This document shows, one piece after another, positions 4,906-23,315 of a DNA stretch of 64,000 nucleotides. Every line of letters starts with the position of its first letter. The stretch's first letter is position 1. The DNA lies in contig BGOS01000006.1 of NCBI GenBank assembly GCA_003569365.1, forward strand, positions 1 to 64,000. Reading direction: 5' to 3'. Position numbers and translations under genes: made by a program. This DNA is from Anaerolineaceae bacterium. Lineage in GTDB: Bacteria > Chloroflexota > Anaerolineae > Anaerolineales > UBA11657. The notes under the pieces were generated by a model that was not told the origin of the DNA, ran no database searches, and saw only the letters and a list, made by a program, of their open reading frames with translations.

Positions 4906-5616
4906 ATACAACAACGGCAGCAACAGCAGATCCAGCAGAATTGTTATGCACAAAGCCACATTCGCAGCACTGGCCAAGCTCCAGGCAACCCCACCCAATG
5001 CAACGCGCACGAGCGGCAGCATGCCAAGCAAGTACCCGCCCAGCGCCAGGCCACCCAACACGGCAGCAGCAGCCGGCAAAGCCCGCCGGTCTGAGGCACT
5101 GGGCAGCATCGTGTTGCTGCACGCAAAAAGCAGATAGACCCACAACCACAAATCCGGCCGCAGCCAAACCTCAGCCAGCAAAGCGCGTAGCTGAATGGCT
5201 TCAGCTGCCGCCGCAGCTGTCCATAACCGGCCCAAGCCAAGGCGTGCGCTAATCAAGCTCACCAACACAATCCCGGCCACCAGCGGGGCGGTTCCCACAA
5301 ACGCAGCCCGCGCAAAGTTCATTTGCTCCGTTTTCACATAACCAAGGCGCACCGATCCATCGCGCTGGCGCTGCGGCCAGAGTGAGATCTCAAGGTCGCG
5401 CAATCCTAAAAAGCGCGCCACAATCCAATGGCTGGCCTCATGCAGCGCAACTCCCGGCAAAAATAGCAGCTGAAACGCAAGCAAAGCCGCATGTTCGTTG
5501 CGAATCAACAACAGCAGGATCAGCTGCGCGTGGCGGGTGACGCGGCTCTGCAGCCAGCCAACGAGGATCACACAAGCCAGCAGCCACAGCACCAAACCAA
5601 AGTTCGGCAGCGCCAC
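4852..5616 (-). CDS. Membrane protein with HEXXH-like motif, possible site-2-protease-like peptidase
   Basis: A 254-residue, mostly hydrophobic protein. The sequence HEASH lies at residues 59-63 in the second hydrophobic region, as in M50-type intramembrane zinc proteases or related M50-like membrane proteins. A second conserved Asp motif of M50 proteases was not identified, so protease activity is a guess. The start is GTG at 5616. It lies 65 bases downstream of tpiA on the same strand and could be the last gene of the gap-pgk-tpiA unit. Its 3' end overlaps the convergent WecA-like gene. Confidence 0.6.
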   Translation of the reverse strand: MALPNFGLVLWLLACVILVGWLQSRVTRHAQLILLLLIRNEHAALLAFQLLFLPGVALHEASHWIVARFLGLRDLEISLWPQRQRDGSVRLGYVKTEQMNFARAAFVGTAPLVAGIVLVSLISARLGLGRLWTAAAAAEAIQLRALLAEVWLRPDLWLWVYLLFACSNTMLPSASDRRALPAAAAVLGGLALGGYLLGMLPLVRVALGGVAWSLASAANVALCITILLDLLLLPLLYLLEALLWRLRGGQLLRA

Positions 5617-5681
5617 AGAGTTTAGAGTTGGAGTGCGGACTTATTCACGTTTTAGCATGCAGCGCTGCCCACCGGGGCAAC

Positions 5682-13374: not shown

Positions 13375-14271
13375 ATGTCGGAGCCCACTTCCACATTTGC
13401 TTTGAGTGCGTGGATTTTGGCTTCCCGGCCACGTACTTTGTTCGCGGCCGCGGCGCCCGTGGTGGTTGGCAGTGCCATTGCCATACGCGACGGCGGGTTC
13501 GCATTACAGCCGGCACTTGCTGCGCTGTTCGGTGCGCTCTTGCTTCAGGTTGGCTCCAACCTCGCCAACGACGTTTTCGATTTCCAGCGTGGCGCCGACG
13601 CACCGGACCGTGTTGGCCCGCTGCGTGTTACACAGGCCGGCCTCCTAACGCCTGTGCAAGTAATGCGCGGCATGTGGATCGTCTTCGCGGTCTCGCTCAT
13701 TCCCGGCCTCTATCTTGCCGCTCGCGGCGGTTGGCCGGTAATCGCAATCGGCGTCTCTGCCATCGCCGCCGCAATCCTTTATACCGGCGGCCCACTGCCC
13801 TACGGCTACAAGGGCCTTGGCGAAATCTTTGTTTTCCTGTTCTTCGGGCTTGTGGCAGTTAGCGGCACTTACTACGTGCAAACCAGCACGTTGACGTGGC
13901 TCGCCATCGCCGCGAGCATCCCGGTCGGCTTGCTTACCAGTGCAATATTGAGCGTGAACAATTTACGAGACATGGGGCCAGACCGGGCAGCCGGCAAGAT
14001 CACGCTCGCAGTGCGCCTCGGCATGCGCGGCGCACGCATTGAGTACTTGCTGCTCCTCGGGCTGGCTTTTGCCGCCCCGCCCGCTCTCGCCGCAGCCGGG
14101 CTAGCATCCGTCTGGGTAATGCTCACGTGGCTCAGCGGGCCGCTGGCTGAGCGGCAGGCACGCATTGTTGTCACGCAAACCGGGGCCGCCCTCAACGCCG
14201 CGCTTGCGGGAACAGCGCTGCTTACCTTCGTATTCTCACTGCTGTTCGCTGCCGGCCTTACCGTCCAATAA
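13375..14271 (+). CDS. menA: 1,4-dihydroxy-2-naphthoate polyprenyltransferase
   Basis: Integral membrane UbiA-family prenyltransferase that joins the isoprenoid tail to DHNA, giving demethylmenaquinone. Seen: ASRPRTL near the N-terminus, the Mg-prenyl-diphosphate motif NLANDVFDFQRG near 61-72, GGPLPYGYKGLGE, and the second motif SVNNLRDMGPDRAAGK. The 298 residues include about eight or nine hydrophobic helices. It faces the menF-menD-menB-menE operon, and its last 36 bases overlap the end of menE on the other strand. Translation is probably leaderless. Confidence 0.95.
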   Translation: MSEPTSTFALSAWILASRPRTLFAAAAPVVVGSAIAIRDGGFALQPALAALFGALLLQVGSNLANDVFDFQRGADAPDRVGPLRVTQAGLLTPVQVMRGMWIVFAVSLIPGLYLAARGGWPVIAIGVSAIAAAILYTGGPLPYGYKGLGEIFVFLFFGLVAVSGTYYVQTSTLTWLAIAASIPVGLLTSAILSVNNLRDMGPDRAAGKITLAVRLGMRGARIEYLLLLGLAFAAPPALAAAGLASVWVMLTWLSGPLAERQARIVVTQTGAALNAALAGTALLTFVFSLLFAAGLTVQ

Positions 14272-15708
14272 TTCCGCAACGCCAAACGCTGCGCGTAACT
14301 CCGCCCGCTGCACTTTCCCCGCCGAATTGCGCGGAAGTGAGTCCATTACCTGCCAGCTGCGCGGCACCTTGTATCCAGCCAGCTTCATGCGGCAAGCACG
14401 CTGCAAGTCACCAACTTCAAGTTTCAGTTCCGCCTTCGCAACAACAGCTGCACCCACACGCTGTCCCCAATCCGCGTCAGGTAAACCAACCACACAACAC
14501 TCCGCCACAGCCGGGTGCGCCAACAGCACTGCCTCAACCTCCGCCGGATAAACATTTTCTCCGCCACTCACAATCAGATCGACGCGCCGCTGCAATACAA
14601 ACAAATCACCAGCGTCATCCAGGTAACCAAGATCTCCCGTAAACAACGCACCGCCCCGCAGCGCAGCGTTGGTCGCGAGCACATCTTTGTAGTAGGCATT
14701 CATCACAGTCGGACCCGCCACACAGATCTCGCCAACTTCGCCGGGCGCCAGCTGCTGCCCGCGGCTGCCCACCACCTCCACGCTAATGCCGGCCAGCGGC
14801 CGGCCAACGCTGGCCGGTTTCGCAAGTGCGCCAGCTGGCGTTGCAGTCACTGCCTGTGCTGCCGTTTCGGTCATGCCATAAGTTGGGAAGATCGGCCAGC
14901 CCAGCGCGAGCGCACGCAATACCAGTTCCGCCGGCGCAGCAGCCCCGCCAAGGAGGACGCAGCGCAAGCTGGACGACGCCTCAGCGCCGGCAGCCAGCAG
15001 GCGTTGCAGCATTGTAGGCACAAGCGAAATGATGGTGATGTGCCCAGCAGCAATTGCGGCGGTTACCAAGCTCGCGTCGAACCCTGCTTGCAACTCAATC
15101 GCGGTTCCATAAATGCAGCTCCGCAAAGCTGCTGCCAACCCACCCACGTGGTAGAGCGGCATGCACAGCAGCCAGCAGTCATTTGGCATCACGCCCAAGC
15201 GCTGTGCAGAAGCTTGTGCGCCCGCAAGCAAGTTGCTACTCGTCAGCTGTACTGCCTTTGGGCGCCCGCTGGTCCCGGACGTGAACATTAGAAACTGCGC
15301 AGCGCAGCGCGCCTTGACTCTCAGCGCTGGCGCCGTAGCAATTGTTCCGGGCAACTCCAGCCGCGGGCAATCCAGCGCTTTGGCCAGATCAGCGGTGGCT
15401 GCGTTGCAGACAAGCAGCGCCACATCGGCATACTCGATCTGCCATTGCAGTTCCACTTTGGTCAGGCGTGTATTGAGCGGGACCAGCACCGCCGCGAGGC
15501 GCATTACTGCATGCACCAGCACAACGAATTCCGGGCAGTTGGGCAGCAGAACTGCCACATGACTGCCGTTCACAACACCAGCGGCAACAAGACACGCAGC
15601 CATCTCAGTAGCAGCAGCATCCAAGTCCGCGTAACACCAACGGGAAGTGCCAAACCTCACTGCCAATGCCGCCGGGTTGCGCACTGCCTGGTCCGCCAGC
15701 CAATCCAT
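14236..15708 (-). CDS. menE: o-Succinylbenzoate--CoA ligase
   Basis: Adenylate-forming enzyme that activates o-succinylbenzoate to OSB-CoA for MenB. At 490 residues it shows the P-loop LMFTSGTSGRPKAVQL, the adenine region PTYGMTETAAQ, FTGDLGYLDDAGDLFVLQRR and the C-terminal lysine motif LPRNSAGKVQRAEL. A general acyl-CoA ligase cannot be ruled out from motifs alone, but its place 69 bases after menB supports MenE. It is the last gene of the minus-strand men operon. Confidence 0.92.
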   Translation of the reverse strand: MDWLADQAVRNPAALAVRFGTSRWCYADLDAAATEMAACLVAAGVVNGSHVAVLLPNCPEFVVLVHAVMRLAAVLVPLNTRLTKVELQWQIEYADVALLVCNAATADLAKALDCPRLELPGTIATAPALRVKARCAAQFLMFTSGTSGRPKAVQLTSSNLLAGAQASAQRLGVMPNDCWLLCMPLYHVGGLAAALRSCIYGTAIELQAGFDASLVTAAIAAGHITIISLVPTMLQRLLAAGAEASSSLRCVLLGGAAAPAELVLRALALGWPIFPTYGMTETAAQAVTATPAGALAKPASVGRPLAGISVEVVGSRGQQLAPGEVGEICVAGPTVMNAYYKDVLATNAALRGGALFTGDLGYLDDAGDLFVLQRRVDLIVSGGENVYPAEVEAVLLAHPAVAECCVVGLPDADWGQRVGAAVVAKAELKLEVGDLQRACRMKLAGYKVPRSWQVMDSLPRNSAGKVQRAELRAAFGVAELLDGKAGSEQQ

Positions 15709-15777: not shown

Positions 15778-16614
15778 TCATGGACGCCAGGGGAATTTTC
15801 CAAACTCCGGGTTGCGCTTCTCTCTATAGGCGGCGTTGCCCTCCTGACCCTCCTCGCTCATGTAGTACATCATTGTCGCGTTACCCGCCAGCTCCTGCAA
15901 TCCAAGCTGGCCGTCGCAATCGGCGTTCATTGCTGCTTTGAGAAAGCGAATGGCAATCGGACTCTTTGCAAGAATTTCGCGCGCCCAATTCATGCCCTCG
16001 TGCTCCAGCTGCGCCGTCGGTACAACGGCGTTGACGAGGCCCATCTGCAACGCATCCTGCGCGCTGTACTGCCGGCACAGATACCAGATCTCGCGCGCTT
16101 TCTTCTGCCCCACAATGCGCGCAAGATAACTGCTGCCGAGCCCGCCATCAAAGCTGCCAACTTTGGGGCCGGTCTGCCCAAAGACCGCATTCTCGGCAGC
16201 AATCGTCAGGTCACACACAACATGCAGCACATGACCGCCACCAATTGCATAGCCAGCCACCAAAGCAATTACCGGCTTTGGTATCGATCGAATGATGCGC
16301 TGCAGCTGCAGCACATTGAGGCGCGCGACGCCCTCATTGTCCACGTATCCGCCATACCCGCGCACGCGCTGGTCGCCACCGCTGCAAAAAGCATACTTGC
16401 CATCTTTTGCCGGCCCGTTGCCGGTCAGCAAGATGGTGCCCACCTGCTGATCGTGCCAAACATGATTGAATGCCTCAATCATTTCATCAATCGTCTGCGG
16501 CCGGAATGCGTTGCGCACTTCCGGCCGGTTAAATGCTATCCGCGCAACACCCTCAGCTTTTTGATAGGTGATGTCCTCGTATTCCTTAACAGTCGACCAC
16601 TGCAATACTTCCAT
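15778..16614 (-). CDS. menB: 1,4-dihydroxy-2-naphthoyl-CoA synthase
   Basis: Crotonase-fold enzyme that closes the second ring of OSB-CoA to DHNA-CoA. The 278 residues carry [14 protein letters not shown], the MenB-specific [11 protein letters not shown], the oxyanion loop [23 protein letters not shown] and the C-terminal [16 protein letters not shown] lies seven bases before the ATG. It lies between menD and menE in the same operon. Confidence 0.97.
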
Positions 16615-16676: not shown

Positions 16677-18443
16677 CTACTGAACGGTATCCCGCAGTGA
16701 TGAGAGGATGCGCTGCCGCACCAACTCATCAGCAGCTGAATCTGTCTGCACTTCGATCAACTGACTACCGCTGCGGCCCAGCGCTGCACTGAATGCAGCG
16801 CCAAATTCCCGGATGTGCCGCACTAACTGATAGCGCAGCCCAAAAAGTGTCGCCACACCCGAGAACTCCAGCCCATGTGGCGTCAGGAAGAGGTCGGTAA
16901 AAACCGGCTCGAACTGCGCAACTGGCAAACGCCGGAAGATACCGCCGCCGTCATTGTTGAGCACAACGATAATAGCGTGCAAGCCGCAGCGCCGCAGCGC
17001 CAATAGTGCATTGAAGTCATGGTAAAACGCAATGTCACCCAACACTAAAGTGACACGCTGGCCACTGCTGGCCGCGACTCCCAGTGCGCTGGAAATTGTT
17101 CCATCAATGCCGCTGGCGCCCCGATTACAGTAAACCGGCATTTGGGTTGTGCGCACCGCCGCAAACTGATCTAAGTGCCTCACTGGCAAACTGCTGGCAA
17201 TGAACAGCGGAGCACCAGCCGGATGCGCAGCGGCCACCGACGCCACCACGCTGCCCTCCACACCATCAGACTCAAACGCAGCCGCAACCGCCATGGATGC
17301 CCGCGCCTCGCAGGCCGCCCACTGCCCGGCCCACCCGGCCGCAACCAGCGGCGGGTGCGCCGCGAGCGCTGCGGAAACTGCATCACACAGCTCAGCGGGA
17401 TTGCATTGCAACAAGGCACTCAATCGGTGCGAAGGATCCTCGTAGGCGCCGCTGTCACTGATAAGAATCTGAGTCGTACTAGTGCCATCAATCAAGCGCT
17501 CAAGCGCAGCCGAAATTGGCGGTGCGCCAAATCGCAGAATCAAATCAGGCGCAGAAAGTACCGCACTCCCAATGTAGTTCTCGTACAGTCCAAACACCAG
17601 ATCCGCGGAACCATCCGGATGGCGCGCAAAGCGCACGCCAGAAAGCGCGTCCGCAAGCACTGGCACCCGCAACTGTGCTGCAAGGCGCTGCACGGCAGCG
17701 ACAAACGCCGCGCCAGCGCAGCGCGGCCCGCACACAATCAGCGGCCGCGCAGAGTTCTGCAGGGCAGCAACAACACTGTGCAACTGCTCATCGCTCGGCG
17801 TTTGTGCACCGCTTGAAATCTGCAGGTGAAGCCTATCGCGGTCCATATCGCCAGCGCCCAGTGGATCGCGGATGATGTCACCAGGCACTACGGTTGGCTC
17901 CAGAGGCTTGCGGAAAGGAAAGTTCAGGTGCACTGCACCCGCCGGCACACCAGCTGCAACCGCCAGCGCGCGATCCGCCAAACTGCACAAGTAGCGCAAC
18001 ATTAACTCCGATGGATTAGCTTCTGGCAGCGCCACATCTTGAAACCAGCGCACCTGGTCGCCGTAGAGTTTCACCTGATCGACGGTCTGGTTTGCCCCGG
18101 ACGCTCGCGCCTCTGGCGGCCGGTCGGCAGTCAGCACAAGCATCGGCACGCGCGCGTGATTGGCCTCCACAATCGCCGGCAGGAAGTTGGCAGCCGCGGT
18201 GCCACTGGTGCACAAAACCGCAGCGGCACGCCCGCTCTGCAGCCCGATGCCCAGCGCAAAAAAGGCAGCGCTGCGTTCATCCAGCAGCGAGTACACCGTA
18301 ATGCGCGGGTTTGCAGCAAAAGCAAACGCGAGCGGCGTGGAACGCGAGCCCGGCGCAATTACGGCCGCTTGCAGCCCGGCGCGCGCCAGCTCATCCACAA
18401 AAGTGGAAGCCCACAGCATGTTGCGGTTGGCAGAACTTAGCAT
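16677..18443 (-). CDS. menD: SEPHCHC synthase (MenD)
   Basis: Thiamine-diphosphate enzyme that adds the succinyl-semialdehyde unit from 2-oxoglutarate to isochorismate, the committed step of classical menaquinone synthesis. At 588 residues it has the N-terminal APGSRSTPLAFAF and DERSAAFFALG, the CTSGTAAANFLPA segment, and a C-terminal ThDP site with VLGDIAFYHDFNALL and VVLNNDGGGIF. It follows the flavin-binding protein by 62 bases and precedes menB by 62 bases. menH and menC are not in the window. Confidence 0.96.
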   Translation of the reverse strand: MLSSANRNMLWASTFVDELARAGLQAAVIAPGSRSTPLAFAFAANPRITVYSLLDERSAAFFALGIGLQSGRAAAVLCTSGTAAANFLPAIVEANHARVPMLVLTADRPPEARASGANQTVDQVKLYGDQVRWFQDVALPEANPSELMLRYLCSLADRALAVAAGVPAGAVHLNFPFRKPLEPTVVPGDIIRDPLGAGDMDRDRLHLQISSGAQTPSDEQLHSVVAALQNSARPLIVCGPRCAGAAFVAAVQRLAAQLRVPVLADALSGVRFARHPDGSADLVFGLYENYIGSAVLSAPDLILRFGAPPISAALERLIDGTSTTQILISDSGAYEDPSHRLSALLQCNPAELCDAVSAALAAHPPLVAAGWAGQWAACEARASMAVAAAFESDGVEGSVVASVAAAHPAGAPLFIASSLPVRHLDQFAAVRTTQMPVYCNRGASGIDGTISSALGVAASSGQRVTLVLGDIAFYHDFNALLALRRCGLHAIIVVLNNDGGGIFRRLPVAQFEPVFTDLFLTPHGLEFSGVATLFGLRYQLVRHIREFGAAFSAALGRSGSQLIEVQTDSAADELVRQRILSSLRDTVQ

Positions 18444-18505: not shown

Positions 18506-19161
18506 TTACTCTGACGCAAAGCCACGCAAGTATTCTGGTAGCGGCCGCGCCGGCTGCGTGCGCGGGTCCGGCACGGGCGCACTATACAAGTGGCGCATTG
18601 GAATGATGCCGGCCCACACAGGGTAATCCATGTCAGCTTCGTTATCGGTGGGCATGCCGTCTGCAATTTTTGCCGACGCACTTTCAATTGGCACAGCCAC
18701 AATGGTTGTCTGCTTCAACTCACTTTCATCCGGCTGCCGCGCGTCATTCCAACGCCCCGGAATCATGCGCTCTGCAAACAATTGCAGCGCAGCCACGCGC
18801 GCTGCGCCGCCGATCACGGGCGTTCCATGCCCGAAGAGGGTGGCAGACCGGTAATTCATGGAATGTTCAAAAATAGAGCGCGCCAGCACTAGCGCATCGG
18901 GATTGTGACTGAAATGCAGACCGCCCCGCCGGCATCAAGATGCCGCAGCATGCGGCTGGCACGCGAACCGTGCAGCAGAATCTGGTCGCCATCGCGCGCA
19001 TGCATCGTAGGTGTCACATACACCTGCCCGTCAATCACATAGCCCACGCTGCAGATCAGTGCCGCATCCACCACAGCGTAAATGCTCGCGGCATCGTACT
19101 GCCCCTTTTCGGGCAGCCGTTTCACTTTGTTTAGCGGGGTTTTTGGATACTCATGTGCCAT
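18506..19161 (-). CDS. Pyridoxamine 5'-phosphate oxidase-like flavin-binding protein, one frameshift
   Basis: The N-terminal half (MAHEYPKTPLNKVKRLPEKGQYD, a split-barrel with ARDGDQILLHGSRASRML) and C-terminal half (SIFEHSMNYRSATLFG, then PVWAGIIPM) match one protein of the PNPOx-like, FMN- or heme-binding split-barrel superfamily, about 218 residues. The frame breaks near 18900-18902, where one C is missing from a CCC run (expected I-P-D-A-L-V-L-A-R). The ATG at 19161 is chosen because GGAGA lies six bases upstream. It sits between menF and menD, but no role for such a protein in menaquinone synthesis is known to me. Confidence 0.8.
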
Positions 19162-19231
19162 CGCTTCTCTCCGTAATTTCAAGCTTGCTACAGCTGCATT
19201 TCACCAGTGCAGCAATTTAATCGCACGCTGC

Positions 19232-21256
19232 TTACGCACTGAGCGCATCCAGCATCGGCCGCAGCTTTAGTTCAGTCTCATTCCACTCGCGCTCCGGATC
19301 AGAGTCTGCAACAATCCCGGCGCCGGCATATAGCCGCGCAGTTGTGCCGTTGGTAACAGCGCAGCGGATGGCAACTGCCAGCAGCCCGCCGCCATTTGCG
19401 TCCAGCCAGCCCACCGGTGCGCCAAACCATCCGCGCCCCGTTGGCTCCAGTTCGGCCAGCAACTTCAGCGCCTGCACGCGCGGCACTCCGCCGAGCGCCG
19501 GCGTAGGGTGCAGCGCCGCTGCCACCGCCAACAGATCAACGCCGGCGAGCGCCTCGCCTTCAATTGCAGTTTGCAAATGCTGGATGTTGCTCAGGCGCCG
19601 CAGGTTGGGTTCCTGGGCTGCTGCCACAGTTTTTACAAACGGTTGAAGTTGGGAACAAATATCGCGCACCACCAGCTCATGCTCGCCCCGATCCTTTGCA
19701 CTTGCAAGCAACTCGCGCCCCAACGCTGCGTCCTCCGCCGCATCAACGCCCCGGCGGATCGATCCGGCCAGCGCGGTGCTGCGCAGCACATGCCCGTCAG
19801 ACTGCACCAGCAGTTCGGGCGTAGCTCCAAAGAATGCACACCCAGCCTCCGGCTCAATCAGATAGCGGTAGGTGCCCGCGTAATGCTGCTTGAGGTGGAT
19901 CAACGCCGCCAGCGGATCGATTGCGTGCGGCAACTCAAGTGCACGCGCAAGTACCACTTTTTGCAGCTCGCCGGCGCGGATCTGCGCCGTGGCAATGCGC
20001 ACGCTTGCCGCCCACTGAGCTTGTGTTTGCAGCGCAACTGCTGCCGTGGCTGGGCCCGGCACCAGCACGGCGGGATCATCTGGCAGCGCACGCAGCCGCT
20101 CCAGCTCCGCTACCACGCGCTCCTCCAAATGCTGCACATCACTGCCTGGCTGCAAGCACATGTTCAAAGTCAGCCAGACCTTTCCCTGATGGCGCGTTAA
20201 CAGCACTTGCGGCAGCACAAAACATGCTGCCGGAAACGCCGTCCACATCTCATCCGCCACCTCTTCTCGGAAGGCGAAGCCCCCGAACAATCGCGGCTGC
20301 ACTTGCGCCGGCGGCTGCTCACCGGTGGAAAGAATGCGCGCGAACACCGCAGCTGATGCGCTGCGCACGGTGTCGAAGGCAGTGCTGGCGGGAGCTACAA
20401 CACGCGCTGCTTCGCCAAACCCCGCAAAGGCGAGCGGGTTGCCCGCATGCGACCAATACAGGCGCGGCAGACCGCCTGCTTTGCGCAAAAATCCCGTGAG
20501 CGAAACAGCCGGCCATGGTACGGTGCGGCTCACAATCACGGTCTCGCCGGCAGCCAACCGGGCATGCAGGGCAGCCAGCTGTGCGGGCCGCTCCAGCTGC
20601 ACCGCAGTGGCAGACTCCACCTTGGCTGCCTCCCGCCGATTAATACGCTGCTCTGAAACACCAACGCTGCGCAGCAGAATGTTGCGCAGCGCCGGCAGCG
20701 CGCGTTCCGGTGCTGGCTCGCCAGTATGCACCCACTGGATGACCACCTCATTCAGCGCACCCATCCACGCATGCGCTGCCACTTGCGTATCAAGCGGCGG
20801 AATGGCGCCTTCATCAACCGCCTGATCAAGATAACTTTTAATAACGCGAATAAAGCGCCGGTGGACTTCAAGCCGTTTATGCTCGAATGCCGCACCCAAT
20901 CCCAGCGCCTGTACCAGCAGAATCTTTGCAAGGCTGCGATGCTGCCCAAAAGTTTCCATGCACACCCGCAGCGCAGCCTCAACGCGCTCCACGCCGTCGT
21001 GGCTTTCAGCAATCGCAGCATCCAGCCTTTCCTGCAGGCCTGCAACAAACTCCTCAACAATCGCCAGAAACATTTGCTGCTTGCCGGGAAAGTGCGAATA
21101 CAGCGAACCCTTGGACGAACTGCTCTCGGCCACAATTTCGTCCATACTGGCCTCGTGGTAGCCTTTGCGCGCAAACACGCTAATGGCCGCCTCAAGGATA
21201 CGGCGACGGGTGGCATGCACGCGCCCCTTTGGATTATTTCGCTGGAAAATAGCCAT
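19232..21256 (-). CDS. menF: TetR-family regulator fused to isochorismate synthase
   Basis: One 674-residue frame. Residues 1 to about 200 are a complete TetR regulator: helix-turn-helix RRRILEAAISVFARKGYHEA then SSSKGSLYSHFPGKQQMF, followed by an all-helical ligand domain. Residues from about 225 to the end are a complete isochorismate synthase: VSRTVPWPAVSLTGFL, LQKVVLARALEL with the catalytic Lys, GATPELLVQ, LRSTALAGSIRRG, KDRGEHELVVRDI, LHPTPALGGVPR and YAGAGIVADSDPE. A GTG at 20620 (residue 213) has GGGAGG eight bases before it and would give a free 462-residue MenF of normal size. It heads the operon making MenF, MenD, MenB and MenE. A consensus promoter and a TetR-type palindrome lie just upstream, so self-control of the operon is likely (inference). 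Confidence 0.9.
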   Translation of the reverse strand: MAIFQRNNPKGRVHATRRRILEAAISVFARKGYHEASMDEIVAESSSSKGSLYSHFPGKQQMFLAIVEEFVAGLQERLDAAIAESHDGVERVEAALRVCMETFGQHRSLAKILLVQALGLGAAFEHKRLEVHRRFIRVIKSYLDQAVDEGAIPPLDTQVAAHAWMGALNEVVIQWVHTGEPAPERALPALRNILLRSVGVSEQRINRREAAKVESATAVQLERPAQLAALHARLAAGETVIVSRTVPWPAVSLTGFLRKAGGLPRLYWSHAGNPLAFAGFGEAARVVAPASTAFDTVRSASAAVFARILSTGEQPPAQVQPRLFGGFAFREEVADEMWTAFPAACFVLPQVLLTRHQGKVWLTLNMCLQPGSDVQHLEERVVAELERLRALPDDPAVLVPGPATAAVALQTQAQWAASVRIATAQIRAGELQKVVLARALELPHAIDPLAALIHLKQHYAGTYRYLIEPEAGCAFFGATPELLVQSDGHVLRSTALAGSIRRGVDAAEDAALGRELLASAKDRGEHELVVRDICSQLQPFVKTVAAAQEPNLRRLSNIQHLQTAIEGEALAGVDLLAVAAALHPTPALGGVPRVQALKLLAELEPTGRGWFGAPVGWLDANGGGLLAVAIRCAVTNGTTARLYAGAGIVADSDPEREWNETELKLRPMLDALSA
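20618..20634 (-). promoter_or_regulatory. Candidate internal translation start for stand-alone MenF
   Basis: On the minus strand GGGAGG (20629-20634), an 8-base spacer, then GTG (20618-20620), in frame with the TetR-MenF fusion at Val213. The product would start VESATAVQLERP and be 462 residues, the normal length of an isochorismate synthase. Confidence 0.5.
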
Positions 21257-21266
21257 TATTCACTGA

Positions 21267-21280
21267 ACTGACTGGTCAGT
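21267..21280. promoter_or_regulatory. TetR-type operator candidate at the start of the men operon
   Basis: Perfect inverted repeat ACTGAC-TG-GTCAGT. It starts 11 bases before the TetR-MenF start codon and lies immediately after the predicted transcription start. The sequence resembles the ACTGACC/GGTCAGT operators of several TetR-family repressors. Confidence 0.65.
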
Positions 21281-21290
21281 CTACTTTGGA

Positions 21291-21319
21291 AGAATAGCAC
21301 GAACAAACCAAACTGTCAG
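21291..21319 (-). promoter_or_regulatory. Predicted promoter of the men operon
   Basis: On the minus strand CTGACA (21314-21319), 17 bases, TATTCT (21291-21296). The start point would be near 21284, just ahead of the palindrome at 21267-21280. Confidence 0.6.
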
Positions 21320-21785: not shown

Positions 21786-23315
21786 TTAGTGCGCGCCAGC
21801 CTCAGAAGCAGGCGCTGCATCGTCACGCTCCGCTGCGGCCGCCACGCGATAGGTTACTTTGGCTTGATCCCAGAGCGTGTCCAGTTCCGCCAGCGTCATC
21901 TCCGACGGCGAACGCCCCAGTTCCCGCGCCGCCTGCTCCACCAGCTCAAAGCGCGCCCGGAAACGCGCAGCCGCAACGCGCAGCGCTGTCTCAGCGTCCA
22001 CCTTCAAGTGCCGCGCCCAGTTCACCACACTCAACAGCAAATCGCCCAGCTCCTCAAACTGTTGCGTTTCACCGGCAGCCGATTGCACTTCGCCCAGCTC
22101 CTCCATCACCTTCGCCAGCACCGGCTCCACCGCCGGCCAGTCGAAGCCCACGCGCGCGGCGCGTGCCTGCAGCGCTTGCGCCTGCGCCAGCGCCGGCAAT
22201 GCGCGCGGCACACCCGCAAGTACGCTGCTGGGCACAGATACGCCACTCGTGCGCCGTTCCTCGGCCTTGATGGTTTCCCAGTGCTGCACAACGGCTTCGG
22301 CGCTGGGCAGCTTGAGTGTGCCATACACATGCGGATGGCGACGCACGAGCTTCTCATTGATTCCGCGCAGCACAGCATGCATCTGAAACTCACCGTCATC
22401 AACTGCAATTTGCGCATGCAGCACCACCTGCAACAGCAGGTCGCCCAGCTCCTCCTGCAGTGAATCCGGATCCGCAGCATCCAAAGCCGCCAGCACCTCA
22501 TAGGTTTCCTCAAGCAAAGTTGCGCGCAGTGATTGGTGCGTCTGCTCGCGATCCCACGCGCAGCCCGCAGCCGAGCGCAAATGTGCAACCGTCACCTCGA
22601 GCGCTGCAAAGCTGGAACCAACCGGAAGCGCCGGCACAAACAAACATGTGAGATGGCCAATGTGCAGGCTGTGATCAATCGCATGCAGCGGCTGCCACTC
22701 CAACTGCGCGGACGCAGTACCGGCAGCGTGCACCAGCGCGACAAGATGCTCCTCCGGATATTGGTTCATCAGGGTGAGCTTCAGCTCAGAGGCAACCGCC
22801 CGGCTATAAACCTGTGCCAGCAGCACCGGCACATCCGGGCTCACAGGCGGATGGTGCAAGTCCAATAGCGCCAGCGCGTCACAGAGCTGCAAACTCGGCA
22901 GCACATCGCGCCCAAGCAGCGCCATCACCGGCTGCACAAAGCTCACACCCGGCAGCACCCGCACACCCCAGCCGCGCTTGCCCGCTTCTGCCCGAACTAA
23001 TTCCACTGACGCTTCTGCCGTGTGCGGGTCGCCCGGCACTGCATAGACAACGCTACCCGCTTCCTCGGCTGCTGCAATAATGCGCGCCGCAATCAGCGGA
23101 TACACCGCACTTAAGTCTGCCGTATCTTCATAGATATCATCACAGGTCTGGATCGGCACCCCTGGCGGCAGCCCGGCCACCGCCGGATGGCGCTGCGTTC
23201 GCAGGTAAATCACGGCAGCCCCCGTCAGTGCCTCCCATGCGTCGCGCGTCAGCATGCCCGCTTCACCAGGTCCGAGGCCAACAATCGTGATCACAATGCC
23301 AGAGCCGGGATTCAT
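21786..23315 (-). CDS. YabN-type protein: tetrapyrrole-methylase domain plus MazG pyrophosphohydrolase
   Basis: A 509-residue two-part protein. Residues about 7-215 form a tetrapyrrole (corrin/porphyrin) methylase fold, beginning ITIVGLGPGEAGMLTRDAWE and containing YAVPGDPHTAEASVE. Residues about 245-500 hold two MazG-like repeats (CAWDREQTHQSLRATLLEET with EELGDLLLQVVLHAQIA, then KVMEELGEVQSA with FEELGDLLLSVVNWARHL). MazG hydrolyses non-canonical or excess nucleoside triphosphates. The fusion matches Bacillus YabN, in which the methylase half is often thought not to act on tetrapyrroles. It begins 78 bases beyond the rpsI stop, on the far side of the ribosomal terminator. Confidence 0.92.
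   Translation of the reverse strand: MNPGSGIVITIVGLGPGEAGMLTRDAWEALTGAAVIYLRTQRHPAVAGLPPGVPIQTCDDIYEDTADLSAVYPLIAARIIAAAEEAGSVVYAVPGDPHTAEASVELVRAEAGKRGWGVRVLPGVSFVQPVMALLGRDVLPSLQLCDALALLDLHHPPVSPDVPVLLAQVYSRAVASELKLTLMNQYPEEHLVALVHAAGTASAQLEWQPLHAIDHSLHIGHLTCLFVPALPVGSSFAALEVTVAHLRSAAGCAWDREQTHQSLRATLLEETYEVLAALDAADPDSLQEELGDLLLQVVLHAQIAVDDGEFQMHAVLRGINEKLVRRHPHVYGTLKLPSAEAVVQHWETIKAEERRTSGVSVPSSVLAGVPRALPALAQAQALQARAARVGFDWPAVEPVLAKVMEELGEVQSAAGETQQFEELGDLLLSVVNWARHLKVDAETALRVAAARFRARFELVEQAARELGRSPSEMTLAELDTLWDQAKVTYRVAAAAERDDAAPASEAGAH

Follow-up and report, generated by a model that had tools for sequence, protein, structure and literature searches.

A TetR repressor fused to isochorismate synthase at the head of a menaquinone operon, and its apparent family of menaquinone regulators in Chloroflexota

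In a 64,000-nucleotide stretch of an Anaerolineaceae genome (contig BGOS01000006.1; henceforth the window), one reading frame on the minus strand runs from a TetR-type repressor straight into MenF, the isochorismate synthase that heads a menaquinone operon. This raises a set of connected questions: whether the frame genuinely encodes one protein, whether such a fusion is peculiar to this genome, and what a repressor might sense, and control, when it is covalently joined to the first enzyme of the pathway.

The fused gene and its operon

The frame is devoid of internal stops across its 674 codons, and each of its halves is recognized by profiles with scores above their own cut-offs. At the N-terminus, TetR_N (PF00440) matches at 1.4e-15 (57 bits versus a Pfam cut-off of 24), with a conserved SKGxxYxxF recognition region, and is followed by a ligand-binding domain of the TetR_C_24 family (PF17932) that likewise exceeds the Pfam cut-off. 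In the AlphaFold model, this half comprises nine helices at a mean pLDDT of 92, the C-terminal ligand domain being all-helical; its closest solved folds include the acyl-CoA binders FadR and FasR, the nearest being FadR, a repressor that responds to long-chain acyl-CoA, and the NCBIfam FadR_Bac model also matches it, but below its own cut-off. The C-terminal half is matched by Chorismate_bind at 1.5e-75, above the Pfam cut-off, and the protein scores 333 bits against the NCBIfam isochorismate synthase model TIGR00543 (cut-off 225). Its K433, E481, E525 and E657 align with EntC and are nearly invariant in relatives; from the roles known in the EntC family we take them to be the catalytic base, the acid and the Mg-binding glutamates. 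The model of the whole protein (mean pLDDT 92.7) shows two well-formed domains, with E. coli MenF as the best fold match in the PDB, and a short, helical linker in which pLDDT dips at about residues 211-220. Judged by these sequence matches and models, the TetR repressor and the MenF enzyme are both present in full, as an earlier sequence-only reading of the window had proposed, and MenF retains its catalytic residues.

That reading had also placed the gene at the head of an operon of the order menF-x-menD-menB-menE, which our annotation bears out, with x being a pyridoxamine-phosphate-oxidase-like gene (Table 1). The linkage of the MenF half to menD, menB and menE is as expected of a menaquinone-specific isochorismate synthase. 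The pyridoxamine-phosphate-oxidase-like gene lacks one base relative to the intact gene for a 218-residue protein in a related genome (L002) and is therefore split, which could stem from faulty assembly or from genuine loss of the gene. Converging on the operon is a menA-like gene; a relative, at locus L084, is recognized as MenA by TIGR00751. On the other side of the fusion lies a gene coding for a tetrapyrrole methylase fused to a MazG domain, a pairing known from Bacillus YabN.

Table 1. Features of the tetR-menF locus, in window coordinates
Feature	Position	Strand	Basis or remark
menA-like prenyltransferase	13375..14271	plus	convergent with the men operon
menE	14236..15708	minus	TIGR01923
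menB	15778..16614	minus	TIGR01929
menD	16677..18443	minus	TIGR00173, 440 bits
pyridoxamine-phosphate-oxidase-like gene	18506..19182	minus	Pfam; between menF and menD
tetR-menF fusion gene	19232..21256	minus	674 aa, one uninterrupted frame
MenF catalytic domain, aa 412-664	19265..20023	minus	Chorismate_bind
linker, about aa 198-240	20537..20665	minus	AlphaFold model and dN/dS comparison
TetR ligand-binding domain, aa 87-183	20708..20998	minus	PF17932 match
TetR DNA-binding domain, aa 20-66	21059..21199	minus	PF00440
operator palindrome ACTGACCAGTCAGT, 14 bp	21267..21280	.	candidate, sequence-based
predicted promoter CTGACA-17-TATTCT, TG before -10	21291..21319	minus	conserved in L003
tetrapyrrole methylase-MazG fusion	21786..23315	minus	Pfam TP_methylase and MazG

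One explanation of such a gene is that a sequencing or assembly indel conceals a stop between two separate genes, and the adjacent gene of the operon is indeed short of one base in this assembly. Against this stand two other metagenome-assembled genomes (MAGs), L002 (from Lake Zurich) and L003, which represent other species placed in the same genus by genome search. The Lake Zurich origin hints that the reference genome may belong to CL500-11-like freshwater Chloroflexota. The gene sits at a contig end in both and is hence only partially covered: L003 spans residues 1-438 at 94% identity and L002 residues 151-674 at 87% identity. Both read through the junction in the same frame with the linker aligned without gaps, at protein differences of 6-13%. 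This rules out the artefact for this genus, where we consider it vanishingly improbable, and disposes of the concern, raised with the original proposal, that a corrected base might split the domains. A separate MenF translated from an internal start was also considered: GGGAGG precedes a GTG at codon 213, yet L003 reads CTG and L002 reads GTT at this codon, and there is no ATG at codons 196-245. Given that the former start is not conserved and the latter is absent, an internal start is not supported.

The same relatives allow an estimate of the constraint on the protein. Between the reference gene and L003, the helix-turn-helix shows a dN of 0 at a dS of 0.45 and the ligand domain a single amino-acid change; the MenF part has a dN/dS of 0.12-0.17, and the linker one of 0.25-0.28 in all comparisons. 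The low values indicate purifying selection on both halves and on the linker, and the fusion has been kept while three species diverged to a dS of 0.3-0.7, neither domain being lost.

Unfused relatives and recurrent fusion

We searched Chloroflexota genomes and then read about 80 loci to place the fusion in context. In the usual configuration, a separate tetR immediately precedes menF, with menD, menB and in many cases menE behind them; some menF loci, such as L105 and L106, are free of a TetR gene. In 43 of 48 same-strand tetR-menF pairs the two genes are unfused, these 43 coming from some 20 families; as the loci were picked by their match to the query, the share of adjacent pairs is not an unbiased estimate. 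Of these 43, 19 overlap, with 4 and 11 nt as frequent lengths, and the other 24 lie within 30 nt of each other. As read from these sequences, the ancestral state is a separate TetR protein, with tetR and menF coming first in an old tetR-menF-menD-menB-menE operon.

In-frame fusions were found in the reference genus, in another family of its order (L052) and outside its class (L092), such that homologues are by no means always two genes; together these are five genomes in three lineages, out of genome scans that, counting repeats, number well above a thousand. The fused sequences need three state changes on the TetR tree and likewise on the MenF tree, and the simplest reading is therefore that at least three independent fusions occurred, the second and third being each represented by a single MAG.

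In several unfused pairs (L014, L023, L148 and others), tetR and menF share a frame and are separated by just one stop, which varies, and this indicates how near a fusion can be. Stop-codon read-through as a conserved mechanism in these relatives was rejected: the stop is TAA, TAG or TGA depending on the genome, with no sign of recoding. In L055 (about 5019-5627), the tetR that precedes menF is fragmented into four pieces in different frames, reflecting either a pseudogene or assembly errors.

The candidate operator and the other settings of the regulator

The sequence-only reading had pointed to a possible self-binding site just upstream of the gene. There, the palindrome ACTGACCAGTCAGT ends 10 nt before the start codon, between it and the predicted promoter; a palindromic operator at a target promoter is typical of TetR-family repressors. 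The 2.63-Mb genome contains no second perfect copy, and it has only two TetR_N matches. The consensus ACYGACNNGTCRGT was found exactly in 50 of the 65 tetR loci with enough upstream sequence, as against 0.005 expected from shuffles, the stretch searched reaching from 150 nt upstream of the start to 40 nt downstream of it; the remaining 15 lack the exact form there, and 522 kb contain only 6 additional copies. Two rearranged loci help to discern the target: in the genome G565, the palindrome lies 13 nt upstream of the menF start (L132), with tetR on another contig ahead of menA (L133), and at L082, where menF and tetR are divergent, the palindrome lies 54 nt before menF. As it stays with menF in both, the men operon itself is the likely target, rather than tetR alone. 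The palindrome is likely the self-binding site of the TetR half, given its single perfect copy and its conservation across the phylum, and its position just after the promoter would suit repression. A wider regulon in the reference genome was rejected, as there is only one perfect operator and the ten other sites at two or fewer mismatches are not far from what a reversed control pattern yields.

The same regulator is found in settings beyond the classical pathway. At L110:4160-8999, a TetR gene preceded by the operator AGACCGACGCGTCGGTCT is the first gene of a futalosine operon. Of its other members, mqnE and mqnC were identified by NCBIfam, whereas an mqnD-like and a deaminase-like gene are also present, the mqnD-like one being so called from its sequence alone; the neighbors of the TetR genes at L111 and L114 are also mqnC/mqnE-like. 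In two families of the reference order, the TetR gene heads a nitrate/sulfonate/taurine-type ABC importer with a menA-like gene or menG nearby, and neither MenD nor MqnC was detected above cut-off in those genomes. Loci with the TetR and its operator before importer and/or menA-like genes include L065, L068, L071, L074, L076, L084, L085, L086 and L088, and these importer clusters are candidates for the uptake of a menaquinone precursor. In all of the men, futalosine and importer/menA settings the ligand domain is well conserved, and on the TetR tree the reference TetR groups among unfused, futalosine-operon and importer-locus versions.

These settings bear on what is sensed. As the same TetR and operator occur where isochorismate is no intermediate of menaquinone synthesis, isochorismate is unlikely to be their common signal; a late product shared by all settings, such as menaquinone or another lipid compound, appears likelier on the evidence of gene neighborhood and fold. 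A hydrophobic ligand is plausible since the closest folds, FadR and FasR, bind acyl-CoA. By neighborhood evidence, any shared metabolite would fit too, be it an acyl-CoA, a polyprenyl diphosphate or the redox state. More tentatively, this family of TetR regulators may sense quinone and govern menaquinone supply across the Chloroflexota, whether by the classical route, the futalosine route or an imported precursor, with the sensing in the three fused lineages also acting on the enzyme by allosteric crosstalk; we hold this broader scheme to be rather unlikely.

A proposed tethered autorepressor and its place among known systems

We consider it probable that the fusion is a bifunctional protein, in which an autorepressor of the men operon is tethered to the first enzyme of the pathway and provides end-product feedback via the ligand domain of the TetR itself. 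Under this proposal, fusion of the two leading genes of tetR-menF-menD-menB-menE would have created a protein whose TetR half binds, presumably in dimeric form, to the palindrome just downstream of the predicted promoter and blocks its own operon, while its MenF half would convert chorismate to isochorismate. The regulating ligand would be bound by the TetR domain, and would most likely be menaquinone or another prenylated or lipid compound that arises late and whatever the pathway; repression would then last until the quinone status changes, making the circuit one of end-product feedback. The fusion itself would set repressor and enzyme at a 1:1 ratio and couple the supply of the enzyme to that of the repressor.

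A serious rival is that the fusion is neutral, with overlapping, co-translated neighbors easily losing a stop and nothing being gained beyond the operon. The overlap in 19 of the 43 unfused pairs, the several genomes with both genes in one frame and a single stop between them, and the rarity of fused forms (merely five genomes) all speak for it; the persistence of the fusion through the divergence of three species without the loss of a domain speaks against it, and we regard it as somewhat unlikely. The fold of the TetR half raises the further alternative of a general, FadR-like lipid or acyl-CoA regulator that responds to fatty-acid status and merely counts menaquinone genes among its targets, an idea to which the sub-threshold FadR_Bac match also lends itself. 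However, no fatty-acid genes were recognized beside tetR in the loci that we read, menaquinone genes were present in most of them, and the reference genome has but one perfect operator; this alternative is thus unlikely.

The sequence-only reading had favored a trigger enzyme. In such a scheme, DNA binding by the TetR half would change with ligand binding or catalysis at the MenF active site, so that chorismate or isochorismate levels control the operon directly. By sequence, an enzyme and a DNA-binding part are indeed united in one protein at their own operon, the covalent link is short and partly helical in the model, and the fusion arose at least three times, as might occur if such coupling were useful. 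Yet the TetR has a conserved ligand domain of its own and was ancestrally separate; it is commonly unfused, sharing ligand domain and operator with the fused form, and TetR and operator also precede futalosine and importer/menA loci that lack MenF and in which isochorismate is not a pathway intermediate, with the reference TetR falling among these on the tree. Since across most of the phylum the regulator seems to do its work without MenF, we do not uphold the notion that the MenF domain reports its substrate or product to the operon: it is distinctly improbable, although in the fused proteins MenF might still play some part in sensing.

Returning to the tethered autorepressor, in open-licence papers we found no description of a TetR-MenF protein, in line with the sequence-only reading, nor of a MenR-like or Chloroflexota menaquinone regulator or any dedicated transcriptional regulator of menaquinone biosynthesis of such a kind. 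It is thus apparently a TetR autorepressor-enzyme fusion within a so far undescribed family of menaquinone regulators, which offers a testable regulator, operator and candidate regulons within one phylum. The repeated natural fusions allow one to test directly whether tethering a repressor to the first enzyme alters control, and the importer/menA regulon hints at a possible route for the uptake of a menaquinone precursor.

Among known systems, close parallels include the trigger enzymes PutA and BirA, where a pathway enzyme has a DNA-binding part that acts on its own genes; as in these, an enzyme of the pathway is here combined with a DNA-binding domain at its own genes, but that domain belongs to a full-length TetR that brings its own ligand domain and that most relatives have as a separate regulator. 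The TetR half shares its fold with FadR of Bacillus and FasR of Mycobacterium, from which it differs by an identity of only about 20%, by other neighboring genes and by its fusion to an enzyme. The MenF half resembles E. coli MenF and EntC in fold and catalytic residues, both of which are without an N-terminal regulator domain. Finally, feedback by a late metabolite on this very pathway has a precedent in the inhibition of MenD by DHNA in M. tuberculosis and S. aureus (PMC9835592); there it is exerted by enzyme allostery, whereas in the case of TetR-MenF it would operate through transcriptional control.
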